Assembly (NCBI GenBank): GCA_028291405.1
Contig: JAQGID010000025.1
Span: forward strand, 1 to 55,166
Direction: 5' to 3'
DNA length: 55,166 nucleotides
From: Rhodospirillales bacterium
GTDB lineage: Bacteria > Pseudomonadota > Alphaproteobacteria > ATCC43930 > CGMCC-115725
Shown here: piece by piece, positions 1,693 through 51,212 of the stretch
How the letters are laid out: each line of letters begins with the position of its first letter
Position numbering within the stretch: the first letter of the stretch is position 1
Translations under genes and position numbers: made by a program
The notes under the pieces: model-generated
The model's input: only the letters and a program-made list of their open reading frames with translations
What the model was told of the DNA's origin: nothing
Databases searched by the model: none

Positions 1693-3810
1693 TCATGCGC
1701 GTTTGCGAGACGAGACCCGGGTCCGCGACGGCGGCAGCACGATCGAGACCGTCGTGCCTTCGTTCGGCCGGCTGTTGATGAAGAGCTCGCCGCCGTGCAG
1801 CTCGGCGAGCCGCTGCGTGATCGGAAGGCCGAGTCCGGTGCCGCCATAGGTATTCGTCGTCGACGCATGCGCCTGGCCGAAGGGCTGGCGGGCGCGCACG
1901 ATTTGCTCCGTCGTCATGCCGATGCCGTTGTCGGCGACCTGGATCAGTACGCCGCCTTGCGCATTGAGGCCGCTGCTGACAGTCACGGCGCCGCCGTCGC
2001 GGGAGAATTTGACGGCATTCGACAAAAGATTGAGCAGAATCTGCTTCATCGCGCGCTGATCGGCCCATAGCAGCACGGCGCCTCCAGCCGAATCGGCGGC
2101 GATTCGGATCCGGCGTTCGCGGGCACGTTCGCGCACCATGGTGAGGCAGGAGGTGACGAGCTCGGCGACGACGACCTCCTCCTCGAAGAGCTCGAATTTG
2201 CCGGCCTCGATCTTCGACATGTCGAGGACGTCGTTGATGAGGTCGAGCAGATGAATGCCGCTGGTATGGATGTCGACGGCGTATTCGAGGTACTTCGCGT
2301 TGCCGACCTCGCCGAACTTCTGGCTCTGGATGATGTCCGAGAAGCCGATGATCGCATTGAGCGGCGTGCGCAGCTCGTGACTCATGTTGGCGAGGAACTC
2401 GCTCTTGCTGCGGTTGGCGATCTCGGCCTGGTTGCGCGCGCTCACCATCTGTCGTTCGGCGCGCTTGCGCTCGGTGATGTCGGAAAAGAGCATGACGAAA
2501 CCGCCATAAGGCATCCGCCGCCGGCGGATCTCGAGTGTCCGGCCGCTTGTCGTCGTCCGCTCGGTCGTGTCGATCTCCCCAAGATGGATATGCTCGAGCT
2601 GCTCGTGAACCTCGTCCTCGATGTCGACCACCGGCCCGAAGTCGCCGCGCCGCGCCTGCAGGCGGAGGATGTCCTGCATCCGCGTGCCGACGCCGACGCC
2701 GGCGGGCAGGCCGAGCAGCGAGATGAACCGATCGTTCCAGGCGAGCAAGCGGTAGTCGCGATCGAAGACGCAGAGCCCTTCGCCCATATGCTCGAGGGTG
2801 CTCTGCAGGAGGGCCGATTGCTCTGCGAGCTTCGCCTCGTTGCGGTGGAGCGTGTCGAGATGGTGCTGCCGTCGATCGAGGAGCCGGACGAAGCCCCAGG
2901 TCAGCGCGCAGATACTCACCGCGATGACGAAGAAGATCGCCATCTGCTCGCGTCGTTCGCCGCGCCAGCTGCTCAGCAACTCGCTCTTGTCGACCGCCGC
3001 GGCGACCAGCATCGGCTCGCCGGCAACGGGACGCGAGCTGATGATCGCGACGCCCGTCGCGATGCTCGCCTCGAAGCTTTGCTCGACGGCCTCCGCGTGC
3101 CGCGCCAGCAAGGCGCCCGCGAGCGCATCCCGGCGGCCGATGTCCTCGTCGTCGGGCGGCTCGCTGGCGAGCAGGGTCCCGGTGCTCGACAGCAGCGCGA
3201 TCCTGATGCCTTTCAGGTTGCCGATCGAAGCGAAGAACTCGCGCAAGCTGGCGATCGGCAGCTCGGCAGCGACTGAGCCGCGGCGCCCATCGGGAAAGAC
3301 CAGATCGCGACTGAGGAGAAGCGACGAGTCGCGCCCGCTTGGACCAGCTGCGGGCAGGCCGATCGTGAGGCCCGAGGCCGTTCCCGTGGCGGAAGCCTCG
3401 ACGAAGTCCCGCTCCGTGAACTGGCGTCCATCGGGCAACGAAGCGCTGGCCGAATTCACGGCGTGCCCGGTCTCGTCGAAAATCACGAGGTCACGCACCA
3501 GCAGGCTTTGGTCGGTCAGCTGTCGCAGCAAGCCACGGAACGCGGGACCGTCGACCGGCGTATCGCGATAGAATCCGGCAAGCGCTTTGGCGACGCTCTG
3601 CAAGACGGCATCGGTCGACAAGATCGTCCGTTCGGTGGTGATTTCCGCGGCGAGCACGATGCGTTCCGCGGAACTCACGGAATCGGCGACGATCTGCTTT
3701 CCGGTGCGGTACGAGGAATGAAGCAGTATGCCGCCGAAGGCGACGATGAGCAGTGCGCAAAAGACGATGACGGCGTGTTTCAAACCGATCAGGGCCCGCA
3801 GCTGTGCCAT
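1693..3810 (-). CDS. Membrane sensor histidine kinase (extracytoplasmic sensor, PAS, HisKA, HATPase)
   Basis: Sensor histidine kinase of 705 residues. TM1 is about residues 14-31, followed by a periplasmic domain to about 285 with a Cache-like layout, and TM2 about 291-310. A PAS domain covers about 335-450 and ends in the typical FSDITERKRAE linker. HisKA contains SHELRTPLN with phospho-acceptor His478. The HATPase domain shows an N box around NAVKF, then DNGIGM and GGTGLGLPI. No receiver domain and no response-regulator gene is visible on either side, so it is an orphan in this window. The ligand cannot be read from sequence. Its ATG lies right after the end of an unexplained open frame (see 3811-4110). 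Confidence 0.93.
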   Translation of the reverse strand: MAQLRALIGLKHAVIVFCALLIVAFGGILLHSSYRTGKQIVADSVSSAERIVLAAEITTERTILSTDAVLQSVAKALAGFYRDTPVDGPAFRGLLRQLTDQSLLVRDLVIFDETGHAVNSASASLPDGRQFTERDFVEASATGTASGLTIGLPAAGPSGRDSSLLLSRDLVFPDGRRGSVAAELPIASLREFFASIGNLKGIRIALLSSTGTLLASEPPDDEDIGRRDALAGALLARHAEAVEQSFEASIATGVAIISSRPVAGEPMLVAAAVDKSELLSSWRGERREQMAIFFVIAVSICALTWGFVRLLDRRQHHLDTLHRNEAKLAEQSALLQSTLEHMGEGLCVFDRDYRLLAWNDRFISLLGLPAGVGVGTRMQDILRLQARRGDFGPVVDIEDEVHEQLEHIHLGEIDTTERTTTSGRTLEIRRRRMPYGGFVMLFSDITERKRAERQMVSARNQAEIANRSKSEFLANMSHELRTPLNAIIGFSDIIQSQKFGEVGNAKYLEYAVDIHTSGIHLLDLINDVLDMSKIEAGKFELFEEEVVVAELVTSCLTMVRERARERRIRIAADSAGGAVLLWADQRAMKQILLNLLSNAVKFSRDGGAVTVSSGLNAQGGVLIQVADNGIGMTTEQIVRARQPFGQAHASTTNTYGGTGLGLPITQRLAELHGGELFINSRPNEGTTVSIVLPPSRTRVSSRKRA

Positions 3811-4110
3811 CGCATCAGCCCGCGAGCGCCAGTACGGCCGCGGGTAGGGCGACGGACGCGGCGAGCCCGTATTCGACCTTCAATCCCATGCGTTCGGCGA
3901 TCCCCTCAGCCGTTTCATCTTCGAATGGATCGAGCGACCAAGAGTTACCGCGTGCTGGAGAACTCCTGAACCGCGATACCAGAAAGACCGACCGCTCACA
4001 ACGTCAAACGCGCACCAATCGGCGCAAAAATCCCTTTTACGTTCATTGCTTAGCGAGGTTTGACGGGGGAGGATGGTTAATGCGGCGGCATGCGATCGGC
4101 ATCGGCCGCG
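3811..4110. other. Intergenic stretch with a start-less open frame
   Basis: There is no confident gene here. On the minus strand an open frame of about 60 codons (about 3995 down to a TGA at 3814-3816) has plausible codon use and ends in MGLKVEYGLAASVALPAAVL, a membrane-helix-like tail. Its only in-frame ATG would give just 24 residues, though a GAGGGG sits about 12 nt before that ATG. The stop lies within a few bases of the histidine-kinase ATG, as in translational coupling. It could be the tail of a decayed gene or a very small membrane peptide. Nothing else stands out apart from likely promoter space for the kinase. Confidence 0.25.
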
Positions 4111-6576: not shown

Positions 6577-6587
6577 GTCACCGATCC

Positions 6588-8593
<2,006 letters not shown>

Positions 8594-32822: not shown

Positions 32823-33974
32823 ATGGCCAGCATCGGCGCGATCGATTCCGGCTCCCCGCGGCTCTCCTTCGCCGAGAAGCTGTGGGGCATCAACTGGGGC
32901 CTGATCCTGCTGCTCACCGTCATCGCCTGCTTCGGCTTCGCGATGCTCTACTCGGCGGCGAACGGCGCGCTGCAGCCCTGGGCGGGGAAGCAGATGCTGC
33001 GCTACGCCGTGTCGCTGGCCCTGATGCTGATCGTCGCGATCGTCGACATCCGCTTTTGGCTGCGCGCCGCCTATGTCGTCTTCGCGATCGGCTTCGTGCT
33101 GCTCGTCGCCGTCGAGGTGCGCGGCGCGATCGGCATGGGAGCGCAGCGCTGGATCGACCTCGGGATCATCCAGCTGCAGCCGTCCGAGCTGATGAAGGTG
33201 GCGCTGGTCCTCGCGCTGGCGCGCTATTTCCACGGGCTGACGATCGAGGAGGTCGGCAAGCCGTTGCGCCTCATCATGCCGGCGCTGCTCATCCTGACGC
33301 CCGCGGTGCTGGTCCTCAAGCAGCCCGATCTCGGCACCGCGATGATGCTGCTGATGTCGGGCGGCGTCGTCTTCTTCCTGGCCGGCGTCCGGCTATGGAA
33401 GTTCGGCCTCGTGATCGGCGCCGGCGCGGCGGCGATGCCGTTCGTCTGGGCCCATATGAAGGGCTACCAGCGCAACCGCATCCTGACCTTCCTAGACCCG
33501 GAGAACGATCCGCAAGGGGCCGGCTACCACATCCTGCAATCGAAGATCGCGCTCGGCTCCGGCGGCGTCTTCGGCAAGGGCTTCCTCCTCGGGACGCAGA
33601 GCCATCTCAACTTCCTGCCCGAGAAGCAGACCGATTTCATCTTCACGATGCTGGCCGAGGAGCTCGGGCTGATCGGCGGCCTCGCGCTGCTCACCCTCTA
33701 TACCCTCGTCTTCATCTACGGCTTCGCCATCGCGCTGCGTTCGCACAATCATTTCGGCCGCCTGCTCGGGCTCGGCATCACCGTCAATTTCTTCCTCTAT
33801 GTCTTCATCAACACAGCGATGGTGATGGGCCTCATCCCGGTCGTCGGCGTGCCGCTCCCGCTGATCTCCTACGGCGGCACCTCGATGCTGACGGTGATGT
33901 TCGGCTTCGGCCTGCTGATGAGCGCCTATATCCACCGCGACGTTCGCATCGGCCGCTTCGGCGAAAGCGACTGA
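32823..33974 (+). CDS. rodA: Rod shape-determining peptidoglycan glycosyltransferase RodA
   Basis: SEDS-family glycosyltransferase that polymerises lipid II with PBP2, 383 residues and about ten helices. Signature segments are GAQRWIDLGIIQLQPSELMKVA near residue 105, QPDLGTAMMLL, NRILTFLDPENDPQGAGYH near residue 220, EKQTDFIFTMLAEELGLIGG and PLPLISYGGTSM near residue 345. The ATG follows the mrdA stop by 11 bp. Last gene of the cluster, with tRNA-Lys 71 bp downstream. Confidence 0.97.
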   Translation: MASIGAIDSGSPRLSFAEKLWGINWGLILLLTVIACFGFAMLYSAANGALQPWAGKQMLRYAVSLALMLIVAIVDIRFWLRAAYVVFAIGFVLLVAVEVRGAIGMGAQRWIDLGIIQLQPSELMKVALVLALARYFHGLTIEEVGKPLRLIMPALLILTPAVLVLKQPDLGTAMMLLMSGGVVFFLAGVRLWKFGLVIGAGAAAMPFVWAHMKGYQRNRILTFLDPENDPQGAGYHILQSKIALGSGGVFGKGFLLGTQSHLNFLPEKQTDFIFTMLAEELGLIGGLALLTLYTLVFIYGFAIALRSHNHFGRLLGLGITVNFFLYVFINTAMVMGLIPVVGVPLPLISYGGTSMLTVMFGFGLLMSAYIHRDVRIGRFGESD

Positions 33975-34000
33975 GCTCGCGGCGAGCGTCTGCTGATTCC

Positions 34001-34029
34001 CTCGACAAGCCGGGATCGCTTTGTTATAC
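34001..34029 (+). promoter_or_regulatory. Candidate promoter for tRNA-Lys
   Basis: CTCGAC (34001-34006) and TTATAC (34024-34029) with a 17-bp spacer stand 16 bp before the tRNA gene. CTTGAC is the usual alphaproteobacterial -35 form. Position and spacing fit, so a separate tRNA promoter is likely. Confidence 0.5.
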
Positions 34030-34045
34030 AGCGCGCCTTCGCGGA

Positions 34046-34121
<76 letters not shown>

Positions 34122-34376: not shown

Positions 34377-34571
34377 TCAGGATTGTTCGATCGAAATGAG
34401 GACGTGTGCCAAGGCTTTGATCAATTCGTGCGTGGCCACGCTGAGCTGTTCATTGGCGGAAGGCGTCTCCCCCGCAAGCGCCAATTCATATGCTTCCTCG
34501 AAGGCGTCGATGGCAGCCGCGACCTTCGATCGGACATCATCGAGCGAATTAAAATTCTGAGCGGCCGCCAT
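34377..34571 (-). CDS. Family A small protein, copy 1 (unknown function)
   Basis: A 64-residue protein starting at ATG 34571 with GGAGGCTTC before it, ending VLISIEQS. It aligns without gaps to the product at 35754-35951: 14 of 41 residues are identical over the C-terminal part, including the shared LxxATxxLxxxLAxVLIxxE end. It looks all-helical, with no Cys, signal or membrane helix. It is divergent from the family B gene at 34870, as its paralogue is from B copy 2. I do not recognise the family. A recent tandem origin is unlikely given 34% identity. Confidence 0.6.
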   Translation of the reverse strand: MAAAQNFNSLDDVRSKVAAAIDAFEEAYELALAGETPSANEQLSVATHELIKALAHVLISIEQS

Positions 34572-34698
34572 GAAGCCTCCGGCTGCGGTAGAGATAGAAA
34601 ATTTCGGCTCAACGTTCGGTTTTGAATAATTTGCTTCTGAGAACTCTTATGGGGCGATTTAATCACGCGAAAGTGAGATTAAGCCAAGGCGCTGATCT

Positions 34699-34745
34699 AT
34701 ACCATATGTGGGAATACTGCGCTGGAACAATACCATATTTGGTAT
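34699..34745. repeat. Repeated operator-like sequence in the A1-B1 intergenic space
   Basis: ATACCATAT occurs at 34699-34707 and again at 34730-34738, 31 bp apart or about three helical turns. The second copy is part of a palindrome, ATACCA-TATT-TGGTAT (34730-34745). The surroundings are AT-rich compared with the rest of the window. This could be a regulator binding region for the divergent pair. No equivalent is visible in the A2-B2 space. Confidence 0.5.
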
Positions 34746-34869
34746 GCAGCGAAGGCCATGAAATGCACATTTCCCTTCAGGAGACCAATCCTCTATAAAC
34801 TTTCAGTTAACATCGCTGGCGGCGAACGAACTTTATATCGTCTGTTCCTCGTACTTGGTAGGGGGTCTT

Positions 34870-35106
34870 ATGGCGAGCAAGGAAGCTTTGATCCTTCGTG
34901 CCTCGCGACTGCGCTCATCGATGGCTCTGATGGATGATCCGCTCGGACGGTTCGTCTTGAAGGCTCTCGTCGAAGCGCTCGATGAGGCTGTTGCAGAAAA
35001 AGATTCGAGCGCTGACTTCGAACGACCACAGCGCGCAGCGACCTTGCGGCACGCGTCTGCTCGCAAGTCGCGACGGCACGGCCAGCCCGCGCTCATTAAG
35101 TCGTAA
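34870..35106 (+). CDS. Family B small protein, copy 1 (unknown function)
   Basis: A 78-residue protein from ATG 34870, preceded by GTAGGGGG. The first 45 residues align without gaps to the product at 36178-36336 with 21 identities; shared features are R.R......DPL.R.VL.AL..ALDEA.AE. The predicted fold is two helices. The last 33 residues (basic, RRAATLRHASARKSRRHG-like) are absent from copy 2, giving a positively charged tail. No domain is recognised. It is divergent from family A copy 1. Confidence 0.6.
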   Translation: MASKEALILRASRLRSSMALMDDPLGRFVLKALVEALDEAVAEKDSSADFERPQRAATLRHASARKSRRHGQPALIKS

Positions 35107-35753
35107 GACAGGCCGTTTTCGCGGGACTATTGGCGCGTTGACATGCGCATGGTGAGGCTCGACCCCTCGACGTCGCACGTGCCGACCTGAGCTGTCGGGT
35201 GGCGGATGCTTTAACTGTCCAGCATATTGACGTCCGTCAATGCCGGCGGTTGCTCGTCCGTGCGAAAGATCGCGATCTCGTACCCGGACTCTGAATCGCG
35301 CCATGTGATCAGCGTTCCACGCGCGAAGGATCGCCGATGTACGTCACCATCTGCCGTCTCTATGAAACCAATCCCGAGGCCATGCAGATGTTTGAAGCGC
35401 TGGCCCGAGAGGAGGGGGAAGACGACATGGCAGCTCGTCGCCAAGTCGAGGCCGGACAGCGATACAGGAGCGCGAAAGTCGACTACGCTAGCGCTGCCCG
35501 AACGTCGAGTGCTACCGGCTCCCGTCCGACCGCGAGGTTCGGATCACGGACGACCCGGCAAGAATAATCTCGTCAAGGTGTCCCATACGGCTTTATGAGA
35601 CCGCCCTCTCGGCTGAGGGCTAGCGTCGGCCGAGGGGACTGCGACCGCACTCCGCGGAGCCCCGTGGATCTCTCCGCTCAAGAGGGCGATCGACAAATGA
35701 GGACGAAGGCCGGATCGATCGAGGCCGCCAGAGTTTTCGTGGCGTGATCTCGA
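35107..35753. other. Spacer between the two small-gene pairs, only doubtful ORFs
   Basis: About 650 bp with no secure gene. The best candidate is on the minus strand, 35211-35444 (77 codons), whose C-terminal half GIGFIETADGDVHRRSFA..GTLITWRDSESG looks protein-like and beta-rich. Its N-terminal part is less convincing. A plus-strand frame at 35337-35567 (MYVTICRLYETNPEAMQMF) overlaps it antisense, and both cannot easily be real. A short hairpin, GCCCTC/GAGGGC around 35603-35620, is also present. I leave both frames as uncertain. Confidence 0.3.
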
Positions 35754-35951
35754 TCACTCCAACTGAATCAGCACCCGTGCTAAGACACTCATCAAGGCGA
35801 CGGTCGCGGTATGCAGCCGCGTCCTTTCGGCTGGCGTCCCCTGACCGATCCATTCCCCAAGAGCGGTATTGAACTCGTTCGTTGCCGCAGCGGCCTTCGT
35901 TCGAAGGGCGGCGCCGCGGCGGCCTCGCTCCCCGGTTCGGTAGGTGTCCAC
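35754..35951 (-). CDS. Family A small protein, copy 2 (unknown function)
   Basis: A 65-residue protein if it starts at GTG 35951, which has GGAGAG six bases before and gives the same length as copy 1; TTG 35978 is an alternative nine codons longer. It aligns with the product of 34377-34571 across TKAAAA....F..A to LMSVLARVLIQLE. The N-terminus is Arg-rich (RTGERGRRG). It is divergent from family B copy 2 at 36178. Function unknown. Confidence 0.55.
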   Translation of the reverse strand: MDTYRTGERGRRGAALRTKAAAATNEFNTALGEWIGQGTPAERTRLHTATVALMSVLARVLIQLE

Positions 35952-36177
35952 AAGACTCTCCGTGCTTCGGCTGATCAATATATTCGAAGGCGAGGACGTT
36001 GGTCCACGATATGTTGTGTTTGAATGCCAAGGCCTCGAAACTACTTCAACTTAAGATAATGTGAATTAACCTTGTCAACTGACGTGCTGTTTTTGCCGGA
36101 TCAAAAATCCCCGTTTGGTTGTTTAATAATAACGAAATGCAACTTTGGAATGGCGCTTTCATCTGACAGGGGATGAT

Positions 36178-36336
36178 GTGAGTAGGAAACAGCTCTATGC
36201 AGACCGAGCGTTTCGGGTCCGTGCCGCGCTGGAGCACCTGAAGGACCCTTTGGCGCGGATAGTTCTTGCGGCACTCGCGGATGCGTTGGATGAGGCTGCC
36301 GCGGAGGACCTCCAATTTGCCGAGCAGGAGGAATAG
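36178..36336 (+). CDS. Family B small protein, copy 2 (unknown function)
   Basis: A 52-residue protein starting at GTG 36178 behind ACAGGGG; the frame is open to TTG 36145, but the added residues do not match copy 1. The body FRVRAALEHLKDPLARIVLA continues into ALADALDEAAAEDL and matches family B copy 1. It ends FAEQEE, with no basic tail. The upstream 200 bp are AT-rich (36040-36165). Together with 35754-35951 it forms the second divergent pair. Confidence 0.55.
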   Translation: MSRKQLYADRAFRVRAALEHLKDPLARIVLAALADALDEAAAEDLQFAEQEE

Positions 36337-50382: not shown

Positions 50383-51212
50383 TGGGACTCGTCATCGCTC
50401 GGGGCGATGAAGGCTGCGAGGCGCGTGGCATCGCGAATATGGATGTTCGAGCCGCTGGTCTCGATGCCGTGCGCCCGCAGCCCGGCGAAGCAGCGCGACA
50501 GGTTCTCCGGCGTCGTCCCGAGCTGCGATGCCAGGAACTGCTTGCTCATCGGCAGCCGGATCTGCTTCGGATACCCCTGCTCGCGGGCCAGCGCGACGAT
50601 GTAGCTGCCGAGCCGCTGCGCCGCCGAGCGGACCTTCATGTCTCTCACGGAGACATAGAGGCTGCGGTTCATCTGCGACAGCCGGGAGATCATCGCCATG
50701 CCGAACTCGGCATCGACGCGGCTGAGGTCGCGCAGCTCGGCGGCCGGGATGCGGAGCAGCCGCGCCGCGGCAAGCACCTTGATGCCGCCGAGCAGCGGCG
50801 TGTTCGTCAGGCAGGACGCCAGCGGGAACGCCTCCGGCGGACTGACGACGTCGACGATGGCAAATTTCCCGTCCGGAGTCGCCGCGCTGAAACCGACCTG
50901 ACCGCGCAACAGAACGTAGAGGGCGCGCGGCACCTCGGATTGACTGAACAGCATCGACGAGCTCGGGTGCTCCTCAAACACGGCCTGGGCCGCGAGTCGC
51001 TGAATGATCGGCGGCGACAGGCCCGCGAAAACCGGGGCTTTGGTGAGGAGAGTGATCTTGTCGTCGTCCTCGTAACCGTTACTTCTCGGCAAAGTCTCAG
51101 CCTTCTCCTCAATGTGGTTGCACCATAGGCCACATGCGACAGCGGCGAAAAGGGACCCGAAAGTGCTAGCCGAGAGATGACCATTTTTTGACGCCGTTGC
51201 TCGCCGGCGCAT
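50379..51212 (-). CDS. Crp/Fnr-family transcriptional regulator
   Basis: Crp/Fnr regulator, up to 277 residues from ATG 51212; TTG 51092 behind AAGG would give 237 residues and is nearer the family length. The cyclic-nucleotide-like barrel covers about residues 50-165 (LYVLLRGQVGFSAA; VVSPPEAFPLASCLT) and the winged helix the C-terminal 80, with LPMSKQFLASQLGTTPENLSRCF as the recognition region. It has no N-terminal CX2-3C cluster of Fnr type apart from two isolated Cys in the dubious N-terminus. It probably controls the divergent Rieske operon or the adjacent LLM gene. Confidence 0.88.
   Translation of the reverse strand: MRRRATASKNGHLSASTFGSLFAAVACGLWCNHIEEKAETLPRSNGYEDDDKITLLTKAPVFAGLSPPIIQRLAAQAVFEEHPSSSMLFSQSEVPRALYVLLRGQVGFSAATPDGKFAIVDVVSPPEAFPLASCLTNTPLLGGIKVLAAARLLRIPAAELRDLSRVDAEFGMAMISRLSQMNRSLYVSVRDMKVRSAAQRLGSYIVALAREQGYPKQIRLPMSKQFLASQLGTTPENLSRCFAGLRAHGIETSGSNIHIRDATRLAAFIAPSDDESH

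Follow-up and report, generated by a model that had tools for sequence, protein, structure and literature searches.

Two small genes, here called A and B, form a dispersed family in which A usually lies head to head with B across an AT-rich region, and which has been found so far in one genome, that of the Rhodospirillales bacterium from which the window (the whole 55,166-nucleotide stretch that was analysed) was taken. The paired arrangement noted in the window by the preliminary description holds and is larger than first noted, being repeated through the genome. A and B are thus a real multicopy paired gene family with traceable origins, less mysterious than first described. The window carries two of the pairs:

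34377-34571, minus strand: A1, 64-aa helical-hairpin protein with homology to the C-terminal part of proteobacterial helix-turn-helix (HTH) proteins
34572-34869, no strand: A1-B1 intergenic region, divergent and AT-rich, 298 bp
34870-35106, plus strand: B1, 78 aa, two-helix B family; its basic C-terminal tail is absent in the other 11 aligned copies
35754-35951, minus strand: A2, helical-hairpin protein of 65 aa starting at GTG (or perhaps at TTG, 35978)
35952-36177, no strand: A2-B2 intergenic region, divergent and AT-rich, 226 bp
36178-36336, plus strand: B2, two-helix protein of 52 aa starting at GTG (or perhaps at TTG, 36145)

Each of the four frames is open as claimed, and the likeness within each couple is confirmed, A1 and A2 being 38% identical over 50 aa (E about 2e-5) and B1 and B2 43% identical over 51 aa (E about 3e-8), with both E values referring to a small set of loci. 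The AT-rich nature of the divergent gaps is likewise borne out by a G+C content of 46% and 50% in the 330 bp upstream of B1 and B2, respectively; that of the whole window is 66.5%. Two details require correction. Of the 12 B proteins aligned, only B1 has the basic tail said to have been lost in B2, so the tail looks gained in B1, and the "Arg-rich start" of A2 (VDTYR...) is not peculiar to this copy, since those on contigs C84, C312, and C93 start similarly. Between the window pairs lie two overlapping frames on opposite strands (35211-35444, minus, and 35337-35567, plus), for which no match of meaningful score was found in Pfam or NCBIfam. Elsewhere in the window, a TPP riboswitch is present at 6579-6705 on the plus strand (66.7 bits).

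Compared with the whole 6.48 Mb genome, B1 matched nine places besides itself and B2 (E 2.2e-6). Searches with the B1 and B2 queries, followed by a 12-row B profile, gave 15 places, the two in the window included, which represent 14 distinct loci because contigs C93 and C27 have 127 identical bases at their ends and carry one split B locus. A1 as a lone query found only itself at E 0.001; a seven-row A profile, with A1 and A2 among its rows, recovered both and gave 10 places in the genome, namely seven A genes, two pieces of the A gene on C312, and an HTH protein on C90. With the C312 gene counted once despite its broken frame, the genome has eight A genes. Seven of them are divergent from B (both window copies and those on C84, C312, C48, C93, and C179), with a start-to-start spacing of 210-332 bp in the seven pairs, that of C48, where the A start is not fixed, being taken from the frame edge. 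The eighth, on C176, is tail-to-tail with B, 36 bp separating the stops, and on C108 the same position is occupied by the short remains of an A-like gene (E 0.002). A divergent A is missing at seven of the 14 B loci, which besides these two are those on C131 (526 bp upstream covered), C270, C461, C391, and C398.

The order A-B-A-B in the window, together with the tail-to-tail loci and the B loci without a divergent A, fits tandem duplication followed by loss. Several copies appear decayed, notably that on C312, where the A frame is broken (which could alternatively be an assembly error), and that on C108, where the usual B start is not seen; in the C398 copy, the start position is not fixed. 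The C84 and C312 loci share 71% DNA identity over 627 columns, a match that takes in the intergenic part and is bounded nearly exactly by the stop codons of A and B, and a second, separate match of 163 bp lies nearby. The suggestion that the pair was duplicated as a unit is therefore upheld by its recurrence at other loci of the genome and by the extent of the C84/C312 homology, and copying of A-B pairs as a unit and in tandem is supported.

Both A and B frames look to be under selection as proteins, judging from ratios of nonsynonymous to synonymous differences (pN/pS). The preliminary description had associated a ratio near 1 with non-coding frames; the in-frame mean is 0.55 for B (lowest value 0.18; 66 pairs from 12 copies, a set without C108 and C398) and 0.58 for A (21 pairs of seven copies, C312 left out), below the shifted sense frames of B (1.12 and 1.54) and A (1.12 and 1.42). 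The antisense frames gave 1.15, 0.65, and 1.89 for B and 1.01, 0.63, and 1.41 for A, so that with one antisense frame nearly as low as the true one pN/pS alone cannot settle the strand, least of all for A; the strand is settled by profile matches to proteins elsewhere. Synonymous differences are high, at least 0.42 in every pair printed, and the true ratios are thus probably lower.

The earlier view that no family fits these proteins stands with respect to catalogued families, but not with respect to relatives. For the four window proteins, no model in Pfam, NCBIfam, PHROG, or PADLOC matched above the cut-off or at a meaningful E value; the matches in the first three collections are at E 0.03 or worse, whereas PADLOC gave none at E 1, so no catalogued toxin-antitoxin or defence model was matched. 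No relative of solved structure was found by sequence below E 0.2. A likeness of the predicted A2 or B2 model to ferritin, the MIT domain, Tsi2, or Aqs1 was rejected, no PDB fold matching at E 0.001, and mutual paralogy of A and B is ruled out by an hhalign probability of 1.5%. Among the matches listed by a literature word search, no title concerned the A or B genes. Nevertheless, A is related to the C-terminal part of HTH proteins and B, remotely, to a small helical family.

The A profile matched 19 of 61 genomes (the own genome included) at 33 places, of which 23 are foreign (best foreign E 8.4e-14). In 17 of the 18 foreign genomes, and at 21 of the 23 foreign places, the match covers the C-terminal portion of a longer frame, which carries an HTH-like segment at its N-terminus. 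The exceptions are a 66-aa stand-alone A-like gene in the relative G015, beside which no B was recognised in the 3.2 kb examined, and a frame in G019 cut by the contig end. Pfam HTH matches were weak in the five long relatives tested (at best HTH_7, 5.1e-5, at the cut-off; HTH_28, 6.1e-5, below it). The HTH segment, scanned against named genomes, yielded 29 loci, and the HTH and hairpin profiles fall in one frame in all 21 loci with longer matches; in the remaining eight, the match is limited to 20-30 residues of the HTH. Nineteen of the 21 two-profile loci are titled as Alphaproteobacteria or members of that class (e.g., Azospirillum doebereinerae and a Reyranella MAG) and two only as Proteobacteria; these loci are not independent, since several are contigs already present in the 61-genome search and one gave a query row. 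A broader hairpin profile, applied to a class sample of 385 genomes, was matched in five, namely three members of the same family besides the own genome and, weakly, one genome outside that family. Six Azospirillum plasmid records label the HTH-hairpin relatives "hypothetical protein", one of them covering at least 80% of the query.

The HTH-plus-hairpin proteins of Azospirillum and Reyranella have frames of 168-425 aa, and most of A can be aligned with their C-terminal hairpin; in contrast, A has 64-66 aa (where the start is clear) and lacks the HTH segment and the linker. A2 is predicted to fold as a two-helix hairpin (helices 2-37 and 40-64, pLDDT 90.7). The HTH profile had no match at the A genes, whose frames are too short for the HTH segment. 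A thus corresponds to the C-terminal helical hairpin of the proteins of an uncatalogued HTH family, occurring on its own and lacking the HTH. The own genome has one full-length HTH-hairpin protein by the HTH profile at E 1e-5, on C90. In a tree of 22 hairpins, a weakly supported branch (53/72) sets the seven A rows apart and the C90 protein is not with them, so it may not be their partner. On the same contig (L079; 1350-1784, plus, and 3357-3881, minus), a hairpin frame with a weak likeness to B (17.2 bits) is present some 1.6 kb away from the HTH-hairpin gene. In another genome (G006, C1, 37133-38586), two HTH-hairpin proteins of 168- and 169-aa frames are encoded on the same strand with their hairpins about 1.1 kb apart.

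B was not convincingly found outside the own genome among 61 relatives, 385 genomes of the class, and 398 of the phylum. Its profile matched the own genome alone of the 61 and three genomes in each of the two larger samples, which partly overlap and both include the own genome. The four matches in foreign genomes have weak E values (7.7e-5 to 9.2e-4); three fall inside long frames of 355-897 aa, and the sole nearly full-length one (G618) resembles a small two-helix protein of the type described by a profile (A3) of six proteins of the own genome and found in seven of 142 genomes of the class, the own one among them. The number of candidates scored per genome was at most 16 to 49 in the class and phylum samples versus up to 104 in the relatives, and the absences of B there are thus weaker than those among the 61 relatives. 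Since B was not convincingly found elsewhere, the check proposed earlier, a search for A-B adjacency in other Alphaproteobacteria, produced no case beyond the own genome.

Comparison of the A3 and B profiles by hhalign gave a probability of 85.5% (E 5.7e-6), collinear over 42 columns, with a score of 30.3 versus a maximum of 20.0 in 60 column-shuffled controls. The A3 profile also recovers several B copies, at best at E 2.8e-4 and otherwise more weakly; the similarity is remote rather than close. These two results place B as a branch of that family, and it is best seen as a divergent, locally amplified branch of small two-helix alphaproteobacterial proteins with the pattern KAAxCRRLAxxAxDDxxRxxLLALAEEFExRA, for which no database name was found. 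B aligns with them in one register over the 42 columns, but differs in its own DDPLAR signature, in its 14 loci in one genome, and in the frequent divergent A. The B2 model is predicted to consist of two helices (3-18 and 24-51, pLDDT 88.1). Three B-like two-helix genes are clustered on C126 of the own genome (1815-3179), two on the plus and one on the minus strand.

The regions between the divergent genes contain candidate operators in pair 1, as follows:

34699-34711, plus strand: first copy of direct repeat ATACCATATNTGG, candidate operator peculiar to pair 1
34730-34745, plus strand: second copy, 31 bp beyond the first, inside palindrome ATACCATATTTGGTAT

The ATACCATATNTGG pattern has three matches in the window (at most two mismatches) versus 0.43 expected, and none of 100 shuffles had as many; the pattern was picked after viewing the sequence, and two of the three matches are both strands of one palindrome. 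Exact copies of the repeat occur in 12 of 173 fetched loci, every one on the window contig, and could represent a copy-specific candidate operator. No motif common to the B upstream regions rose above shuffled sequences in a Gibbs search of the last 260 bp of 12 of the 14 regions, one of each near-duplicate pair being left out (three widths, eight shuffled sets each). A stretch GTTGTTTAAT is clear in three close copies only.

The genes sampled beside the family show no single theme. We scanned by Pfam 20 proteins encoded in 13 stretches at the 12 non-window loci (one or two frames per stretch, chosen by G+C pattern), and found chemotaxis, Crp-type, methionine-synthase-like, transport, PTS, FAA-hydrolase, DNA-ligase, Rieske, and other proteins, one of the 20 being without a match. 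A chemotaxis-receptor gene is common to C84 and C398. An all-against-all comparison revealed related Crp-type regulators 1.3-3.5 kb from the A/B genes at C84, C312, and C27/C93, and a further one is encoded on C90, 0.6 kb away from the HTH gene. All four are confirmed by Pfam:

L023, 1516-2280, plus strand: Crp-type regulator
L024, 3170-3985, plus strand: Crp-type regulator
L030, 3560-4333, minus strand: Crp-type regulator
L079, 1745-2734, minus strand: Crp-type regulator

Such genes are absent from the stretches of the other nine non-window loci (tblastn, E 1e-4), the nearest match in the window is weak (50412-50951), and the recurrence at three loci may be due to chance.

The site following tRNA-Lys in the window is variable. 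The tRNA closely follows rodA in four of six relatives fetched (window 33402-34121; L154-L159), lies about 5.5 kb from rodA in G001, of the same genus, and is missing from 7 kb in G005; the window frames after tRNA-Lys up to 48000 have one weak match among the relatives (30.6%, G001). A tRNA-linked island was rejected, as the last 20 bases of the upstream tRNA-Lys are not repeated between 34122 and 44000 (up to five mismatches), and no tRNA was found in 14 fetched stretches (the other B loci and C90). Similarly, a plasmid origin was rejected because B1 is unmatched in the plasmid collection, and a prophage origin because no B relative was confirmed in viral contigs (8 and 368 pattern-matching stretches in two scans).

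The proposal that A and B work together is plausible, although their divergence is only weakly correlated (r = 0.17, exact permutation P = 0.21; seven pairs, comprising six divergent ones and the tail-to-tail C176 pair, C312 left out) and half of the B loci lack a divergent A. As A lacks the HTH and an HTH-bearing relative is present in the same genome, domain make-up points to competition for oligomerisation of this relative. The HTH protein, presumably a regulator in view of its HTH, would oligomerise via its C-terminal hairpin; A, a hairpin without the DNA-binding part, would pair with the full-length protein, found in a single copy on C90, and lower or redirect its DNA binding. B, taken as a partner because of the kept A-B arrangement, would be co-regulated from the shared AT-rich region, bind A or that hairpin, and so set the amount of free A, and amplification of the diverging pairs would provide many graded versions of this control. 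The microProteins of plants and animals are described as short proteins of one domain, by which larger proteins are sequestered in non-functional complexes (PMC4807768). A likewise consists of a single domain, common to it and a larger, probable regulator whose DNA-binding part A lacks, but is bacterial, multicopy, and paired with an unrelated gene, and its sequestering role is conjectural. The anatomy of the A-B pairs is firm; a microprotein-type mechanism, with A blunting the full-length HTH protein and B as its co-regulated partner, is a tentative possibility, against which stand the weak A/B correlation, the lack of a shared operator, the B loci without A, and the place of the C90 protein in the tree. 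An accompanying history, in which the oligomerisation hairpin of an HTH regulator was detached in one lineage and placed head to head with a second hairpin gene, the pair then being amplified into many diverging copies that tune the parent, is unlikely as a whole.

Two other explanations are doubtful, but each retains some likelihood. A and B may form a two-protein complex of their own in which the HTH protein is not involved, for example an antagonistic pair that diversifies like toxin-antitoxin or immunity families; the pairing of two small genes, their many diverged copies, and the decay of the A frame on C312 and of the B start on C108 would suit such a pair, whereas the head-to-head rather than operonic order, the absence of a PADLOC match and of any meaningful PHROG or Pfam match, the frequent B without A, and the uncorrelated divergence would not. 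Alternatively, the unit may be a repeat that spreads selfishly or passively, its short segment being copied by recombination or by a mobile element that escaped notice, and its proteins being only slightly useful to the host. Dispersal of B to 14 loci with mostly unlike neighbours, the tandem and tail-to-tail arrangements, the decayed copies, the want of a convincing B in the other genomes searched, and a C84/C312 homology that stops at the gene ends are all consistent with this; yet most copies differ at about half of their residues while their frames are still constrained, no recombinase family is present among the 20 flanking proteins scanned, and the viral contigs yielded no B relative. 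Finally, A as a relic domain and B as a stand-alone small helical protein could act separately and share only a promoter, as the seven B loci without divergent A, the stand-alone A-like gene in G015, next to which no B could be recognised, and the weak mirror-tree result might suggest, but this is improbable given that seven of eight A genes have kept a divergent B at a similar distance.

These observations tie an unnamed, repeated family of small genes to an uncharacterised HTH protein family and name a concrete candidate partner. If true, the microprotein reading would provide a clear bacterial case of control by detached regulator domains that both originated and multiplied within one lineage; if false, the family would still represent a well-defined amplification of two small genes in one genome.
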